The notes under the pieces were generated by a model. It did not search any database. It saw nothing but the letters and a program-made list of their open reading frames with translations, and was not told where the DNA came from. A stretch of 64,000 nt of DNA from contig NZ_LDUY01000004.1 of assembly GCF_001038455.1 (NCBI RefSeq), positions 1 through 64,000 on the forward strand, read 5' to 3'. Made by a program: the position numbers and the translations under genes. Source of the stretch: Fructobacillus sp. EFB-N1. GTDB lineage: Bacteria > Bacillota > Bacilli > Lactobacillales > Lactobacillaceae. Of this stretch, positions 2,178 to 25,734 are shown piece by piece (the stretch's first letter is position 1; each line of letters opens with the position of its first letter).

Positions 2178-3020
2178 TTACTTAACTGTGGGTGCACCCT
2201 TCCAAACAGCAACCTCACCAGTACCACTCTTGTAATCGATGAAATCAGCAACGTTCTTTGACTGGTAAGCCTTTACTAGCTTCTTAATTGCTGAACTATT
2301 CTTCTTGCTCTTCGTCGTGGCAATAATATTCACAGCACCATGTTGGCTCTTATCAAGCGGACGCACATAAATGGCCGAATTGATTGAACGGCCAGCACCA
2401 ACAATAAAGCTTGGATCAACAGAAGCCAAATCAACTTCAGGCAATACACGGACTAGCTGGTCAGTACCAACTTCCTTAAATTGCAAGTTCTTCTTGTTTT
2501 CTGTAATATCCTTCAAAGTTGGATCAGAAACCTTGTCAGACACCTTAATCAAGCCAGCTGCTTGTAGTAACAGCAATGTTCGACCTTGTGTAATCTTCGC
2601 ATTTGAAATGGCAACCGTTCCATTTTGTGGAATGTCTTTAATGCTCTTGTGCTTATCAGAATACAAACGACCGGCAACCATGATGGTTTCACCAACAGGA
2701 ACAATATTTGTCTTATGTGCCTTGTTCCAATCGTTCAAAAAGATATAGTGCTGGAAGGCGTTGGCGTCAATATCTCCCGAAGACAGCGCCGCGTTTGGCT
2801 GGTTATAGTCGGTAAAGGTCTTAATTTTAAGGTCCAGACCTTCCTTTTTGGCATTTGCCTTAATCAGCTTCCATTGCTCATCCGTTTTTTTGTCACCAGC
2901 CATAATACCGACAGTCAACGTTTCCGTTTTGCTCTGAGCGCTATGCTGAAAAAAGCTAAAATAACCAACGACAATCAAAGCAATCGCTGCAATAATACCT
3001 GTTACTATTTTGTTGTTCAT
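2178..3020 (-). CDS. metQ: MetQ/NlpA-family substrate-binding protein of a methionine ABC transporter
   Basis: Extracytoplasmic binding protein for D/L-methionine or a related amino acid, feeding a MetNP ABC importer. The chosen ATG (3018-3020) follows an AG-rich ribosome site and starts a 280-residue protein with MNNKIV, a hydrophobic segment at about residues 5-24, then the NlpA core (TLTVGIMAG..., DYNQPNAALSSGDIDANAFQHYIFL, and a C-terminal VWKGA). There is no lipobox cysteine, so it is predicted to be held by an uncleaved N-terminal membrane segment rather than by lipid. No metN or metP lies beside it: upstream is only a T-box leader and downstream a terminator, so it is a single-gene unit. 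The T-box specifier reads best as methionine, supporting the substrate. An open frame extends upstream of 3020 but has no ribosome site. Confidence 0.85.
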   Translation of the reverse strand: MNNKIVTGIIAAIALIVVGYFSFFQHSAQSKTETLTVGIMAGDKKTDEQWKLIKANAKKEGLDLKIKTFTDYNQPNAALSSGDIDANAFQHYIFLNDWNKAHKTNIVPVGETIMVAGRLYSDKHKSIKDIPQNGTVAISNAKITQGRTLLLLQAAGLIKVSDKVSDPTLKDITENKKNLQFKEVGTDQLVRVLPEVDLASVDPSFIVGAGRSINSAIYVRPLDKSQHGAVNIIATTKSKKNSSAIKKLVKAYQSKNVADFIDYKSGTGEVAVWKGAPTVK

Positions 3021-3127
3021 TCTTCTCTTCCCTTTTCCCCTATTTGTTGCAATTAAAATCGAACAATTTTTTAATAAACTCTTTTGGCAATGCAATTCCC
3101 CGCTACCTAATCAACTCCTTTTCAAAT

Positions 3128-3398
3128 AAAAAAGTCCCGTAGTCAAAAGACTACGGGACGAATTAAAGTCGTGTTACCACCCTGATTTTAACTAGCATCA
3201 CTACTAGTTACTCGACAGGTACGTCAAAAAGAGATACCCTAACGCAATAACGGGCGCACCCGGTTCCGGCTAACCAATAGCTCACCGTCACTTAAACTCA
3301 AGGACCATTTTCAAGGGTTTTAATTCATCAACTCCCACCACCGTTGATTCGCTGTGCAATCTCGACCCTTTACTTTTCCTGTCGATGTTCATTAATTG
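3128..3398 (-). promoter_or_regulatory. T-box riboswitch, probable methionine specifier, upstream of metQ
   Basis: On the minus strand the leader shows a Stem I with AG bulge (AGCGA) and distal GGTG loop, an AGTA-containing specifier loop, the T-box sequence GGGTGGTAACACGAC at 3168-3182, and a terminator whose 11-bp stem (3134-3144 with 3149-3159) runs into T6. Lower Stem I pairs AGGA with TCCT; the 3' side of the loop reads GAAAATGG, so ATG at 3306-3308 is the natural specifier (AAT is possible by one nucleotide). Uncharged tRNA-Met would stabilise the antiterminator and turn on metQ. Class assignment is firm; the specifier is inferred. Confidence 0.88.
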
Positions 3399-3604
3399 CA
3401 GTTTAGCAATCAAATTAGTATTTGTCAACAAAATATGAAAAAATAGTTAAATTTAAATGAATAAGCATTTCTCCCAGTTACAATTTTAATTGATGTAGTA
3501 CCTGCTGAAGGACTCTAACTACAATTTGTGTTTTTTATTTTAATTTAAAGCTGAACAGTTATATATTAAAGAATAAGAAGTTACGATAAGGTGGTTTATG
3601 AATT

Positions 3605-4066
3605 ATGAAAAAAATTATTGGAGTTGCCGTGGCAATCGCCGTAGCGATTGCCAGCGTGATCGACGGTTACATTGTCTTCTTCAAGGGCCATCAACGGCAT
3701 TCTCAGACTAGTTCAAATAGCAATCAGTCTAGTACAAGCACCAAATCGTCCAGCAGCACTAGCAGCAATCAAACGACGAATGGACAATACAAAGACGGAA
3801 CGTTTACTAGTAAAACGGTTACTACCCCTCATGGTACCATGCAGGTTAGTGTCGTGATTTCAAACGGTAAAATCACGAATATCAAAATTTTGAAGTATCC
3901 TGACAAAGAATCCAAATCAGAAAGCATTAACAGTCAATCATTGCCTACTTACCAATCGGAGGCCATTAAGGCCCAAAGTGCTAATATACAACAAGTATCT
4001 GGTGCTACCGAAACTTACACAGGATTCACGAATTCACTTCAAGATGCTTTAAACAAAGCGGTTTAA
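3605..4066 (+). CDS. Membrane-anchored FMN-binding domain protein
   Basis: A 153-residue protein carrying covalently bound FMN on the outer face of the membrane as an electron carrier. It has an N-terminal hydrophobic anchor (about residues 3-26, no lipobox Cys), a Ser/Thr/Asn-rich linker (33-58) and one FMN_bind domain (60-153). The flavinylation motif is VSGATET at 131-137; ApbE-type enzymes attach FMN to a Thr of this motif (Thr135 most likely). Ribosome site AAGGTGG at 3588-3594 precedes ATG 3605. It is followed after 21 nt by apbE and then by a heme/flavin membrane oxidoreductase, all co-directional, so the three read as one operon for trans-membrane electron export. Related in principle to PplA and to RnfG/NqrC domains. 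Confidence 0.85.
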   Translation: MKKIIGVAVAIAVAIASVIDGYIVFFKGHQRHSQTSSNSNQSSTSTKSSSSTSSNQTTNGQYKDGTFTSKTVTTPHGTMQVSVVISNGKITNIKILKYPDKESKSESINSQSLPTYQSEAIKAQSANIQQVSGATETYTGFTNSLQDALNKAV

Positions 4067-4087
4067 CATTATCCAGGAGGACTGGTA

Positions 4088-4888
4088 TTGACTAAAAAGA
4101 CTAATGCACAATTCCATTTTTTAACAAACGTTATTGGGAAAATGAACATTCCATTTACAATTAGCGCAGCTGTGTTCGAAGAACGGCCTGCCCTTCAAGA
4201 GCGTTTTCAACAACAATGTCAAAAGATTGCTGCTGATTTAGACCAGGTTAACGCTGTTTTTTCACCATTCAAACCGGATTCGTTAGTATCCAGATATGCA
4301 GATGGCGAGCGAGAAGTGATGTTAGATTCAACTGATTTTTAAGAGGTCTTCTTAATGGCTGACCAAGCTAATCAGGTAACCGAAGGATTTTTTGATCCAT
4401 TCTTCAAAGGCCAATATGACCCAACCGGCATCGTCAAGGGCTGGGCAATCGAAAAAATATTTAATCAACGGTTACGGCCCTTACTGACAGATTCCTTGGT
4501 TGCAGGAGTCGCTTTAAATGGTGGCGGCGACATTCAAGCAGCTGTTGCAAATGACAGTGAACTAACCTGGATGACGGGCATTGAAGACCCACGTCAACCA
4601 GGTTACTTGATTGGCAAGTACCCGTTAACCAATGCTGCACTTGCTACCTCCGGGGTTAATAAACGTGGCGAACACATTAAACGGGTTGCCAGTCCATTGT
4701 TGCAGGTCACAATTGTTGATTACTCATTAACGATTGCCGATACCTGGGCAACCGCAGGAATGGCTGCCGGAACCAAACGATTTTTAGAACTAATTAAGAA
4801 ACATCAATTGACGGGCGTGCTCATTGATGCCAAAATTGGTGAAATTAGTTTTGAGAAAGGTCAGGTTCATCATGCTCAAACGATATAA
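4088..4888 (+). pseudogene. apbE: ApbE-family FAD:protein FMN transferase with an in-frame stop codon
   Basis: ApbE transfers FMN from FAD to a Thr of FMN_bind domains, here presumably the protein encoded just upstream. TTG start 4088 follows AGGAGG (4075-4080). The reading frame is continuous for 267 codons except for TAA at 4340-4342 (codon 85), where a single change from CAA would restore ...DF-Q-EVFLMADQ. C-terminal motifs are intact: DPTGIVKGWAIEK, LNGGGDIQA, ATSG, and the metal site DTWATAGMAAG. ATG 4355 lies 9 nt after AAGAGG, so a 177-residue C-terminal piece could be re-initiated, but it would lack the N-terminal part of the FAD pocket. Its 3' end overlaps the next gene by 17 nt. Probably inactive unless the stop is suppressed or a sequencing error. 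Confidence 0.85.
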
Positions 4889-6164
4889 CTTTAGTCTAGG
4901 GCTGACTTGGTTGGTAATCTTCTTTGTCATTCCATTACCACTACTCCAGACACTATCAGCTGGATTGCCAGCAATTTATTCCAGCCAATCCCAAGCAATT
5001 TATTTAGGTGCCATTGCCTATGCTTGGATGCTCACGTCAATTTATTTAGCCACGAAACCCCATTGGTTGGATCGACTGATTGGCTTGCCTGATATGTATA
5101 TGATTCATGGCATCATCAGTATTCTTGCTATCGGTTTGGCCTATTTGCATAAATTTGGTAACCCTTCTGATGGCTGGATAAGAACTACCGGCGATTGGGC
5201 CATTTATCTATTTACTGGCATCATGGTCTATTCGATGATCTTTATGGCTGGCTGGTTCACTAGCCGGATTCCCTTTCTAGCTAAGTTAAAAAGAATGCTA
5301 GAGACCGTTTTCAAACATGAATTATCTGTCTGGTTGCATCGTCTAAACCTGATTGCTACCCTCTTAGTATTTATCCACGTCCAATTAATTAGCTATGTGA
5401 CCGCTATTCATCCTTTCATGTTCGTCTTTTATGCCTACAGTAGCATTGTCTTTATCAGCTACGTGATGAGTAAAGTTCGGAGTCAATTAGGTGATACCAG
5501 AGGAACCGTGATGACTAACGAGGTACTAGCGCCAAATATTCAGGAGTTAACGATTACGCCTCAAAAACATTATCAATTAAATTTGCGAATGGGCGATTTC
5601 GCCTTTATCTCCTTTCCTGATTTAAAAGGCCTGAAAGAATACCATCCGTTTTCAATCGTCAATCCACCTAGTGACGACAGCCAGCACATTAAATTGGCCA
5701 TCCGCGGCGATGGTGACTTCACGAAACTCCTTTCTCAAATTAAACCAGGCGTCGCAGTTAAATTAAGTGGTGGTTACGGCCGTTATCATTCTTTCCTGGA
5801 AGATAATGACCAAGACCATCACATTGTCATGATTGCTGGTGGTATTGGTGTAACACCATTGCTTTCAATCGTGGAAGGTTCTCCAGAACGTCACATTTCA
5901 TTGTTTTATTCCGCCCATTATGACCATGATTTAATCTATTTAAATCAGCTAAAGGATTGGCACCAACGTGACAACTTTAATTTACATTATCAGGTTGGTC
6001 GCTATTCCGAAGCCGATGTTTTGAACCATCAATTGCATGACTTACCAAATAACACCATCTTTCTCATTTCTGGACCGGCTCCAATGATTCGCTATTGGAA
6101 ACGGACCTTGAAGAAAAATGGTATTCGAAATGGGCAAATGTACGCCGAAGAATTTACCTGGTAA
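4872..6164 (+). CDS. Bacterial NADPH-oxidase/ferric-reductase-like bis-heme flavoprotein
   Basis: A 430-residue membrane oxidoreductase moving electrons from cytoplasmic NAD(P)H through FAD and two hemes across the membrane. About six membrane segments lie in residues 8-200. Two spaced histidine pairs, H79/H93 and H156/H169, match the bis-heme ligands of ferric reductase-like domains. A ferredoxin-reductase-type half follows: FAD motif HPFSI (258-262), NAD(P) motif GGIGVTPL (323-330) and SGPAPM (400-405). Architecture equals that of SpNOX of Streptococcus pneumoniae. ATG 4872 was chosen because it follows GAAAGG and opens with MLKRYNF; the frame is open further upstream. It overlaps the end of apbE. 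The acceptor (oxygen, Fe3+ or the FMN protein upstream) is not known; context favours the FMN protein. Confidence 0.85.
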   Translation: MLKRYNFSLGLTWLVIFFVIPLPLLQTLSAGLPAIYSSQSQAIYLGAIAYAWMLTSIYLATKPHWLDRLIGLPDMYMIHGIISILAIGLAYLHKFGNPSDGWIRTTGDWAIYLFTGIMVYSMIFMAGWFTSRIPFLAKLKRMLETVFKHELSVWLHRLNLIATLLVFIHVQLISYVTAIHPFMFVFYAYSSIVFISYVMSKVRSQLGDTRGTVMTNEVLAPNIQELTITPQKHYQLNLRMGDFAFISFPDLKGLKEYHPFSIVNPPSDDSQHIKLAIRGDGDFTKLLSQIKPGVAVKLSGGYGRYHSFLEDNDQDHHIVMIAGGIGVTPLLSIVEGSPERHISLFYSAHYDHDLIYLNQLKDWHQRDNFNLHYQVGRYSEADVLNHQLHDLPNNTIFLISGPAPMIRYWKRTLKKNGIRNGQMYAEEFTW

Positions 6165-6168
6165 TAAA

Positions 6169-6201
6169 GAAAAGCCCGGTCAATATGACCGAGCTTTTTT
6201 A
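6169..6201. terminator. Bidirectional intrinsic terminator
   Basis: Stem AAAGCCCGGTCA / TGACCGAGCTTT around a 4-nt loop, with A-run before and T6 after, closes the electron-transfer operon and the opposing SemiSWEET gene. Confidence 0.85.
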
Positions 6202-7341: not shown

Positions 7342-7923
7342 TTAAGAAACAATTTGATGGTATTGCTCCTGGGCAATTTGTACAATTGGTACTTGCTGTG
7401 AACTGCACGTGCCTAATTTTTGACCAATATGTTGGACAAGCCAAGCAGTTAAATAAGGTCTGGAAAGAAGAGCTAGGTAAGCGTCGAAACTGAGAAACGT
7501 TTCGATATCCTCAAAATAGCTAAACAATTCTTCATCCGCACGCACCGGTTGAACAAGTCGCAGCATAATAATCGTTTCCAAAACTTGCTCATGACAGAGT
7601 AGATGTTCTTTTTGTGCTAAACGAACCATGATTCGTTTCAAAACCCGTTGAGTATCAACAAACCGGTACGCTTTTTCAGCCCAATCAATAATGGCAAAAC
7701 CATCAAAAACGTTGGCTTTCTGCCAATGTTAAGCCCATATAACGCAATAATTGATAGCGGTACTCAAATGGATATCTGTTTGGCCACGTTCAAAATTTAA
7801 AATCACACTCGTCGATAAACCCGTTGCTTCGGCTAAGTCATTGGCAGACATGCCACGAATTTCACGTCATTCGCGAATCATGGCGCCTAAATGTTGAACC
7901 TCTGCAAAGACATCTTTCGACAT
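7342..7923 (-). pseudogene. Degraded XRE-family transcriptional regulator
   Basis: ATG 7921-7923 (minus) with GAGG ahead begins MSKDVFAEVQ and runs into a helix-turn-helix of XRE type (MSANDLAEATGLSTSVILNFERGQ). The frame has TGA at codon 19 (7867-7869, between IRE and REIRG), then shifts frame within the stretch that reads YQLLRYMGLTLAESQRF, and a C-terminal piece of about 99 residues is open at 7342-7641. With at least one stop and two frame changes it cannot make a full regulator. The C-terminal part resembles the helical sensor region of Rgg-like regulators, but this is weak. No target is evident. Confidence 0.7.
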
Positions 7924-8221: not shown

Positions 8222-9195
8222 CTGATTCGCGAAAGTGCTAAACAACTAATGCGCTTAGTCAAAGAAAACGTGAAGCCAAAAAATTTGATTACCAAAGAAG
8301 CGCTTGATATGGCCATGGGTGGTTCAACAATACCGTGCTTCATGTTTTAGCAATTGCTCATGAAGCAGGAATTGACTATAACCAAGAAAATATCAATAAA
8401 ATTGCTAAAAAAGTCCCTTATCTAGCCAAAATTGCGCCATCATCCAACTGGTCGATGGAAGATGTTCATCAAGCAAGTGGTATCCCAGCAATCATGAACG
8501 AACTTGTCCGCATGGGAATATCTTACATCCTGATCGCATGACCCTCACTAGGAAAACTATTCGAGAAAACGTGACTGGCCACGAAATTTTAAATGATGAA
8601 ATTATCAGGCGCTTTGATATAAATCCTTATTCTAAAGAAGGTGGTATCTCCATTCTTTCTACGGGAACCTTGCACCAGATGGCGCGGCCATCAAAGCTGG
8701 TAGAGTCGATGCCAGTGTCAAACAGTTTACGGGAGAAGCCATTGTGTTCGACTCGGAAAGGACGCTGTCAAGGCCATTGATGCCGGTCAGATTCCTGCCG
8801 GTCGCGTAGTCGTTACCCGTTATGAAGGACCTAAGAAAGGACCCGGCATGCCCGAAATGCTTGGACCAACATCTGCTCTAACTAGGATGGGACTAGGAAA
8901 AGAAGTTGCCCTGATTATTGATGGCCGTTTTTCCGGAGCAACCCGTGGTATCTCAGTTGGACATGTCAGTCCAGAGGCAGCAGATCAAGGACCAATCGCT
9001 TTAATTCATGATGGCGATCAAATTACAATTGATTTAGTTGACCGATCAATCCACTTACATGTTAGCGACGCGGAATTAGCAGAGCGAAAAACGCAATTAA
9101 AGCCTTTTAAGCTAAAAATCAAGCATGGTTGGATTGCTCGCTACCAAAGTCTCGTGACTTCAGCAAATACCGGTGCTGTTCTTAAAGGGAGCTGA
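8222..9195 (+). pseudogene. ilvD: Remnant of dihydroxy-acid dehydratase (IlvD), multiply frameshifted
   Basis: IlvD dehydrates dihydroxy-acids in valine/isoleucine synthesis. Roughly the C-terminal 60 percent is recognisable: [23 protein letters not shown], then [14 protein letters not shown], then [13 protein letters not shown], then [22 protein letters not shown], then [37 protein letters not shown] and [22 protein letters not shown]. At least four frame changes lie near 8325, 8520, 8655 and 8757. The N-terminal part with most Fe-S ligands is missing and no other ilv gene is adjacent. The last 115 codons (8848-9195) are intact. A dead gene, suggesting loss of branched-chain amino acid synthesis at this locus. 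Confidence 0.88.
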
Positions 9196-25581: not shown

Positions 25582-25619
25582 AAGAAAAAATCGAGCACCC
25601 CAAAACGGAGCCCTCGATT
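25582..25619 (-). terminator. Riboswitch-controlled terminator after the TPP aptamer
   Basis: On the minus strand ATCGAGGGCTCCG / GGGTGCTCGAT followed by TTTTTTC, starting directly after the aptamer; this is the expression platform of a transcription-type TPP switch. Confidence 0.85.
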
Positions 25620-25720
25620 ACAAAAGTGATACGATTTCCTCCGCCGGCATTATCCGGTTCAGGTGTTCGGGTCAATGGTTTACCATCCTCTCAGTCTGTT
25701 ACACAAACTCCCCGATCGAT
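25620..25720 (-). promoter_or_regulatory. TPP riboswitch (THI element)
   Basis: The minus strand carries the canonical aptamer: GGGGAG, CTGAGAGGATGG, ACCC, CCTGAACCGGATAATGCCGG and CGGAGGAA in order, closed by CGAT/ATCG. Bound thiamine pyrophosphate would favour the following terminator and switch off thiW and the genes after it. Confidence 0.95.
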
Positions 25721-25734
25721 TTTATTCAAAATAA

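Follow-up and report, generated by a model that had tools for sequence, protein, structure and literature searches.

We consider it likely that the three genes at positions 3605 to 6164 of the DNA stretch analysed here (64,000 nucleotides, in the following the window) belong to a family of operons encoding a quinone-independent relay from NAD(P)H to an FMN outside the membrane, and that this module has been broken by a recent stop codon in Fructobacillus sp. EFB-N1. The strain is a flower- and bee-associated lactic acid bacterium.

Operon layout and the NOX-like core

The first-pass annotation of the window described three packed, co-directional genes for an anchored FMN carrier, an enzyme attaching its flavin and a membrane oxidoreductase. 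This layout was found again, with apbE and the NOX-like gene sharing 17 bases. The features are as follows:

3605-4066, plus strand: FMN_bind gene, 153 aa, with N-terminal membrane anchor, S/T-rich linker and a single FMN_bind domain
3617-3682, plus strand: membrane anchor of the FMN_bind protein with conserved acidic D20, hydropathy 2.84
3998-4009, plus strand: SGAT flavinylation motif, Thr135 being the expected FMN acceptor
4088-4888, plus strand: apbE (FAD:protein FMN transferase) of a short, signal-less type, frame interrupted
4340-4342, plus strand: in-frame TAA, codon 85 of apbE; CAA (Gln) in F. tropaeoli
4355-4888, plus strand: 3' piece of apbE, 177 aa, with candidate restart ATG at 4355, 12 bases past the stop
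4872-6164, plus strand: NOX-like membrane flavoprotein (ferric-reductase superfamily), 430 aa
4947-4949, plus strand: Q26 of the NOX-like protein (transmembrane helix 1), where the FMN anchor may dock
5106-5108, plus strand: H79, inner-heme ligand by homology, invariant, aligned to SpNOX
5148-5150, plus strand: H93, outer-heme ligand by homology, invariant, aligned to SpNOX
5337-5339, plus strand: H156, inner-heme ligand by homology, invariant, aligned to SpNOX
5376-5378, plus strand: H169, outer-heme ligand by homology, invariant, aligned to SpNOX
6177-6198, plus strand: terminator-like hairpin and T run at the 3' end of the operon (consensus match only)

The FMN_bind domain is recognised by PF04205 (E 1.2e-10), and with its hydrophobic N-terminus, S/T-rich linker and SGATET motif the first protein fits the anchored carrier it had been taken for. 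Likewise, the FAD and NAD(P) domains assigned to the third gene are matched by Pfam (PF08022, PF00175 and PF00970). An AlphaFold2 model of the NOX-like protein (pLDDT 91) finds SpNOX as its best match in the PDB (8qt6, E 4e-22, TM 0.76/0.82), and a profile of 56 homologues compared with the PDB also ranks full-length SpNOX first (E 4.9e-40). H79, H93, H156 and H169 are invariant in all 56 homologues, which are 25-96% identical to the window protein; their loss in orthologues, named beforehand as a refuting observation, was thus never seen. As in SpNOX, the two His pairs lie on two helices with spacings of 14 and 13. In SpNOX the inner heme is bound by H69/H129 and the outer heme by H83/H142 (PMC11564096), and alignment to these ligands indicates by homology that the hemes are held across the helices, H79 with H156 for the inner and H93 with H169 for the outer one. 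The four histidines of the first-pass annotation therefore stand, its pairing of H79 with H93 and of H156 with H169 does not. The resemblance to SpNOX (8qt6, 8qq7) extends to the fold, the FAD/NAD domain and a C-terminal aromatic residue; on the other hand identity in the structure alignment is only ~21%, and the flavin-carrier operon has no counterpart in those parts of the SpNOX papers that were considered. The ferric-reductase profile PF01794 leaves the window protein unmatched even at E 1 and matches 11 of the 56 homologues.

We found NOX-like matches in 58 of 301 Lactobacillaceae genomes at E 1e-20 and in 71 of 398 genomes at E 1e-100; a sample across the phylum gave distant relatives only. 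The order FMN_bind-apbE-NOX-like is present in 37 of the 60 loci with an intact NOX-like gene (triplets in the following; median overlap of apbE and the NOX-like gene 11 bases). All three genes also occur in 14 of 19 additional loci, a count including damaged genes (L207, L212, L213) and near-copies of earlier loci. Since order, strand and overlap recur in this way, the arrangement is not due to chance; rarity of the adjacency had been proposed as a refutation, and the adjacency is common. At the level of the family, a NOX-type bis-heme core coupled to a dedicated flavinylated carrier, as first suggested, is well supported. Some loci carry two or three short ApbE copies beside the operon (L074, L078, L210), and others are decayed (L129-L133, L212, L213).

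Among 13 Fructobacillus genomes, three have the operon or part of it and 10 lack it; a fourth match is weak (34 bits) and limited to the reductase domain. In F. pseudoficulneus (L009/L092) the NOX-like gene is reduced to its 3' two thirds, with the truncation at residue 135, and borders a transposase-like ORF where the contig ends; neither FMN_bind nor ApbE was found in this genome. As only three of the genus genomes have it, the operon is not part of fructophily itself. Elsewhere in the window, around 2203-3527, a MetQ-like lipoprotein gene (2178-3095, minus strand) with its T-box leader (3151-3394) separates the operon from an upstream peptidase-like gene; these two flanks are directly adjacent in F. 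tropaeoli. An ORF resembling the C-terminal part of an XRE-type regulator (7342-7641, minus strand) is possibly truncated, the regulator being longer in F. pseudoficulneus (L006, 1259-1933). Two short ORFs at 8538-9195 resemble, by eye, pieces of a dihydroxy-acid dehydratase and may be a decayed gene, and a TPP riboswitch at 25619-25724 (minus strand) scores above the Rfam gathering threshold.

The interrupted apbE of EFB-N1

The TAA at codon 85 had been overlooked when apbE was first read as an intact enzyme. In the ORF list the 5' piece spans 4088-4342 (84 aa), and the parts before and after the stop each score above the PF02424 cut-off. In F. tropaeoli, the nearest relative, the orthologue occupies the same chromosomal place and is open over 266 codons. 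An AlphaFold2 model of this intact ApbE (pLDDT 93) places two strands and a long helix ahead of the position of the stop. The 177-aa piece of EFB-N1 accordingly retains the Ser-His-Asp residues and misses the first two strands and the first long helix. A PF02424 search of the EFB-N1 genome (1,637,196 bases, 68 contigs) gave no second ApbE, and no second FMN_bind was found in it either. Supply by a secreted ApbE was considered, as exported ApbEs exist in relatives (L166, L168, L171), and was rejected because EFB-N1 has no other ApbE. With the interrupted apbE and the FMN_bind gene being the only copies, we infer from the sequence that flavinylation was probably lost in EFB-N1, and recently, while the NOX-like core is intact. 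In this strain the module therefore probably does not work as first described.

Comparison with F. tropaeoli gave dN/dS values of 0.08 for FMN_bind, 0.13 for apbE and 0.11 for the NOX-like gene. Values near 0.1 indicate that all three genes were under constraint, so that the stop is either recent or an error; since it is seen in one genome only, the constraint says little on its age. A GAGG lies 8 bases ahead of ATG 4355, and restarting there could carry ribosomes on to the overlapping NOX-like gene and could leave residual ApbE function. It is unlikely that the module still works in EFB-N1, be it with an ApbE made in two pieces from this ATG, by read-through or because the stop is an assembly error. 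A two-piece enzyme would be in keeping with the GAGG and the close restart, with the conserved Ser, His and Asp and with the strong constraint on the downstream piece (dN/dS 0.08), but it would lack two core strands and the long helix, and within the operon dN/dS peaks in the N-terminal part of apbE (0.22). An assembly error fits poorly with the Illumina coverage published for EFB-N1, 368-fold (PMC4520909).

Short ApbE enzymes, other carriers and a candidate docking residue

In 33 FMN_bind homologues S132, G133 and A134 are invariant and the acceptor is T or S. The position of D20 in the anchor is Asp in at least 90% of the alignment rows (a further count took D and E together). One locus without apbE (L094, 4494-4943) has a degenerate FMN_bind motif, PGTS for SGAS. 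The ApbEs of the triplets are small (240-285 aa) and match PF02424 in two pieces, skipping ~50 profile positions; the intact F. tropaeoli protein reaches 74 bits, whereas other ApbEs of the same genomes are matched throughout at >200 bits. The F. tropaeoli model has V. cholerae ApbE (6nxi) as a match in fold, and the short enzymes conserve the Ser, His and Asp that correspond to the ApbE triad (PMC12052999). Judged by hydropathy and charge, none of 35 short ApbEs has an N-terminus resembling a signal peptide; a hydropathy of 2.06 is found in one of them, in a segment aligned to the first strands. Nearly all their FMN_bind partners exceed 2.2, the value being 1.83 for one whose start codon is called late.

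A signal-less ApbE combined with an exported substrate is topologically awkward and counts against the relay reading. It would be explained if the FMN domain stayed in the cytoplasm together with ApbE and received electrons directly from NADH and not from the outer heme. We regard this as very unlikely: the anchors are more positively charged on their N-terminal side in 27 of 33 cases and less so in one, and both the long carrier linkers (48% S/T) and a carrier placed at the outer heme are in keeping with a domain outside the membrane. A signal-less ApbE that acts in the cytoplasm is also described in Klebsiella (PMC12052999), but its substrate there is a soluble cytoplasmic fumarate reductase, whereas the substrate in the window appears to be exported.

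We compared the gene neighbors along a tree of 84 NOX-like proteins, made with a quick method with SH-aLRT supports only and with long branches flagged; neighbors were assigned by HMM match or by reading adjacent ORFs, using Pfam on representatives only. In the clade sister to the triplets all 14 rows have an anchored neighbor of the Flavodoxin_4 type, mostly directly adjacent and on the same strand, in L114 and L116 nearby on the opposite strand. The NOX-like gene lies beside an anchored Flavodoxin_4 protein in L113-L126 and L139. An SGA[TS]-type motif is absent from the four such proteins examined, in contrast to the extracytosolic flavodoxins of PMC11334425, which are flavinylated. More distant NOX-like proteins adjoin multi-FMN_bind proteins or Cyt-b5 lipoproteins; the NOX-like gene is followed by a cytochrome-b5-like lipoprotein in L144, L148, L149, L151 and L152 (Pfam on L152 only). 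Some members of the triplet clade have no neighboring carrier gene. That sister clades pair the core with other external redox carriers suggests that the core passes its electrons to an external protein.

These exchanges bear on whether the NOX-like protein might mainly be an NADPH oxidase that, like SpNOX, reduces oxygen (an NADH oxidase, making superoxide or H2O2), with the FMN protein as an accessory or side branch. The conserved order with FMN_bind and apbE and the carrier swaps fit protein-to-protein transfer better. SpNOX, the closest solved relative, does reduce oxygen in vitro, although the authors of that work caution that its physiological acceptor may be a different one (PMC11564096). 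Fructobacillus uses oxygen as an electron acceptor (PMC4696137), and what EFB-N1 retains whole is only the NOX-like protein with a bare carrier. Taken together, oxygen reduction as the main role seems rather unlikely, and transfer to the carrier remains our preferred reading.

A possible contact between carrier and core emerged from a scan for columns separating the clades, which is how Q26 was picked: it is kept in 34 of 37 triplets, these being all 34 from Lactobacillaceae, while the three others (L134, L137, L138), from other families, have Y or F. It is found in none of the six partnerless proteins of the triplet clade and in none of the 14 proteins of the flavodoxin clade, and among 87 columns conserved in triplets it alone is lost in all six partnerless rows. 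Of six independent pairs five agree and none is against (p 0.06). In loci fetched afterwards, near-copies included, Q26 occurs in all 14 triplets and in none of five others. When proteins with and without a partner were compared, no clear relaxation of the outer loops was seen in the latter, and a denser search for partner losses in a single genus gave one partial new match. The anchor Asp/Glu is kept also in L134 and L137 despite the missing Q26. On this pattern D20 of the FMN anchor may contact Q26 of helix 1; because three triplets outside Lactobacillaceae break the pattern, Q26 is kept as a candidate only.

Proposed electron path, known systems and meaning

From the observed gene content, conservation and fold matches we infer the following path. 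Cytosolic NAD(P)H would reduce the FAD of the C-terminal domain by hydride transfer, from where electrons would travel singly via the inner heme (H79/H156) and then the outer heme (H93/H169) to the FMN covalently held by the small FMN_bind protein. The N-terminal helix of this protein would hold it on the outer side of the membrane and probably docks on helix 1 of the NOX-like protein, D20 facing Q26. The dedicated short ApbE would attach the FMN, the simplest course being attachment in the cytoplasm ahead of export, and reduced FMN would pass electrons to an external acceptor, candidates being Fe3+, oxygen, a quinone or another compound. In EFB-N1 the carrier is probably without flavin. Besides the topology of ApbE, points against this reading are the dependence on heme from outside, the members of the triplet clade that have no carrier gene nearby, the incomplete spread of Q26 and the absence of the module from 10 of 13 Fructobacillus genomes.

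The general class was described in 2021 by Meheust et al. (eLife, PMC8238504), whose "MsrQ-like" systems combine apbE and FMN_bind with a heme-FAD-NAD protein. The arrangement had been presented as little described; it is a variant and not a new kind. The clustering of apbE and FMN_bind with a six-helix, two-heme membrane protein bearing a C-terminal NAD-binding domain is the same, as is the proposed electron transfer from NAD(P)H to the outside (PMC8238504). Different are the reported occurrence, mostly in Actinobacteria (PMC8238504), the short, signal-less and interrupted ApbE of the window and the NOX-like protein unmatched by PF01794. As PF01794 is the defining profile, membership by the survey's own definition was rejected, and much of the Lactobacillales branch may have been missed by the survey, which used it. 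What is added to the known class is this branch, largely invisible to PF01794.

The VIT1 iron transporter found in some MsrQ-like clusters (PMC8238504) raises assimilation as an alternative purpose, the operon reducing Fe3+ for iron uptake. SpNOX has a weak ferric reductase activity, judged not physiological (PMC11564096). By eye, no iron transporter or regulator was recognised among the ORFs of the first 12 kb, nor directly beside most NOX-like genes of other clades (in L135/L107 a Fur-like ORF lies further upstream), and we hold this role to be distinctly unlikely compared with electron export.

In Listeria the flavin-based route runs through NDH-2 and a quinone and relies on an ApbE that is exported. 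Its components (Ndh2, EetAB, PplA, FmnB) include, as in the relay proposed here, an FMN_bind carrier that is tethered to the membrane and receives its flavin from an ApbE enzyme; EFB-N1 differs in having one single-domain FMN_bind protein and no UbiA family. For the PplA lipoprotein, NF041941 reached 26.7 bits in its genome against a cut-off of 325. The UbiA family (PF01040) has no match in this genome and matches in 14 of 14 control genomes, and ferrochelatase was not found in it either. This indicates that there is no menaquinone prenyltransferase, that the route would be quinone-free and that external heme would be needed. The absences are in line with the literature, according to which Fructobacillus has lost its genes for respiration, is devoid of adhE and, on glucose, depends on electron acceptors from outside (PMC4696137).

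In a limited search of the open-access literature we found no description of the Lactobacillales branch, the short ApbE, the carrier exchange or Q26, and for Lactobacillus ApbE only another FMN_bind/ApbE system. Three elements thus look new: a small, divergent, signal-less ApbE beside an exported substrate, the swapping of carriers among sister NOX-like clades (anchored flavodoxin, multi-FMN_bind, cytochrome-b5 lipoprotein) and a transmembrane Gln that tracks the FMN partner within Lactobacillaceae. Only tentatively do we join them into one picture, in which Lactobacillales have a distinct family of NOX-core exporters with interchangeable external carriers and, in its FMN_bind version, a short cytoplasmic ApbE flavinylates before export and the anchor docks through an intramembrane Asp-Gln contact.

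If true, flavinylation before export would remove the need to export FAD; a signal-less ApbE beside an exported substrate in any case prompts one to ask if a carrier can be flavinylated ahead of its export. A NOX core beside a flavin carrier, or beside a flavodoxin or cytochrome b5 in relatives, provides named candidates to test. Such a relay would help an organism without menaquinone synthesis to reoxidise NAD(P)H. Fructophilic lactic acid bacteria need external acceptors, and for them the operon is a candidate quinone-free outlet, one that appears to be decaying in Fructobacillus.
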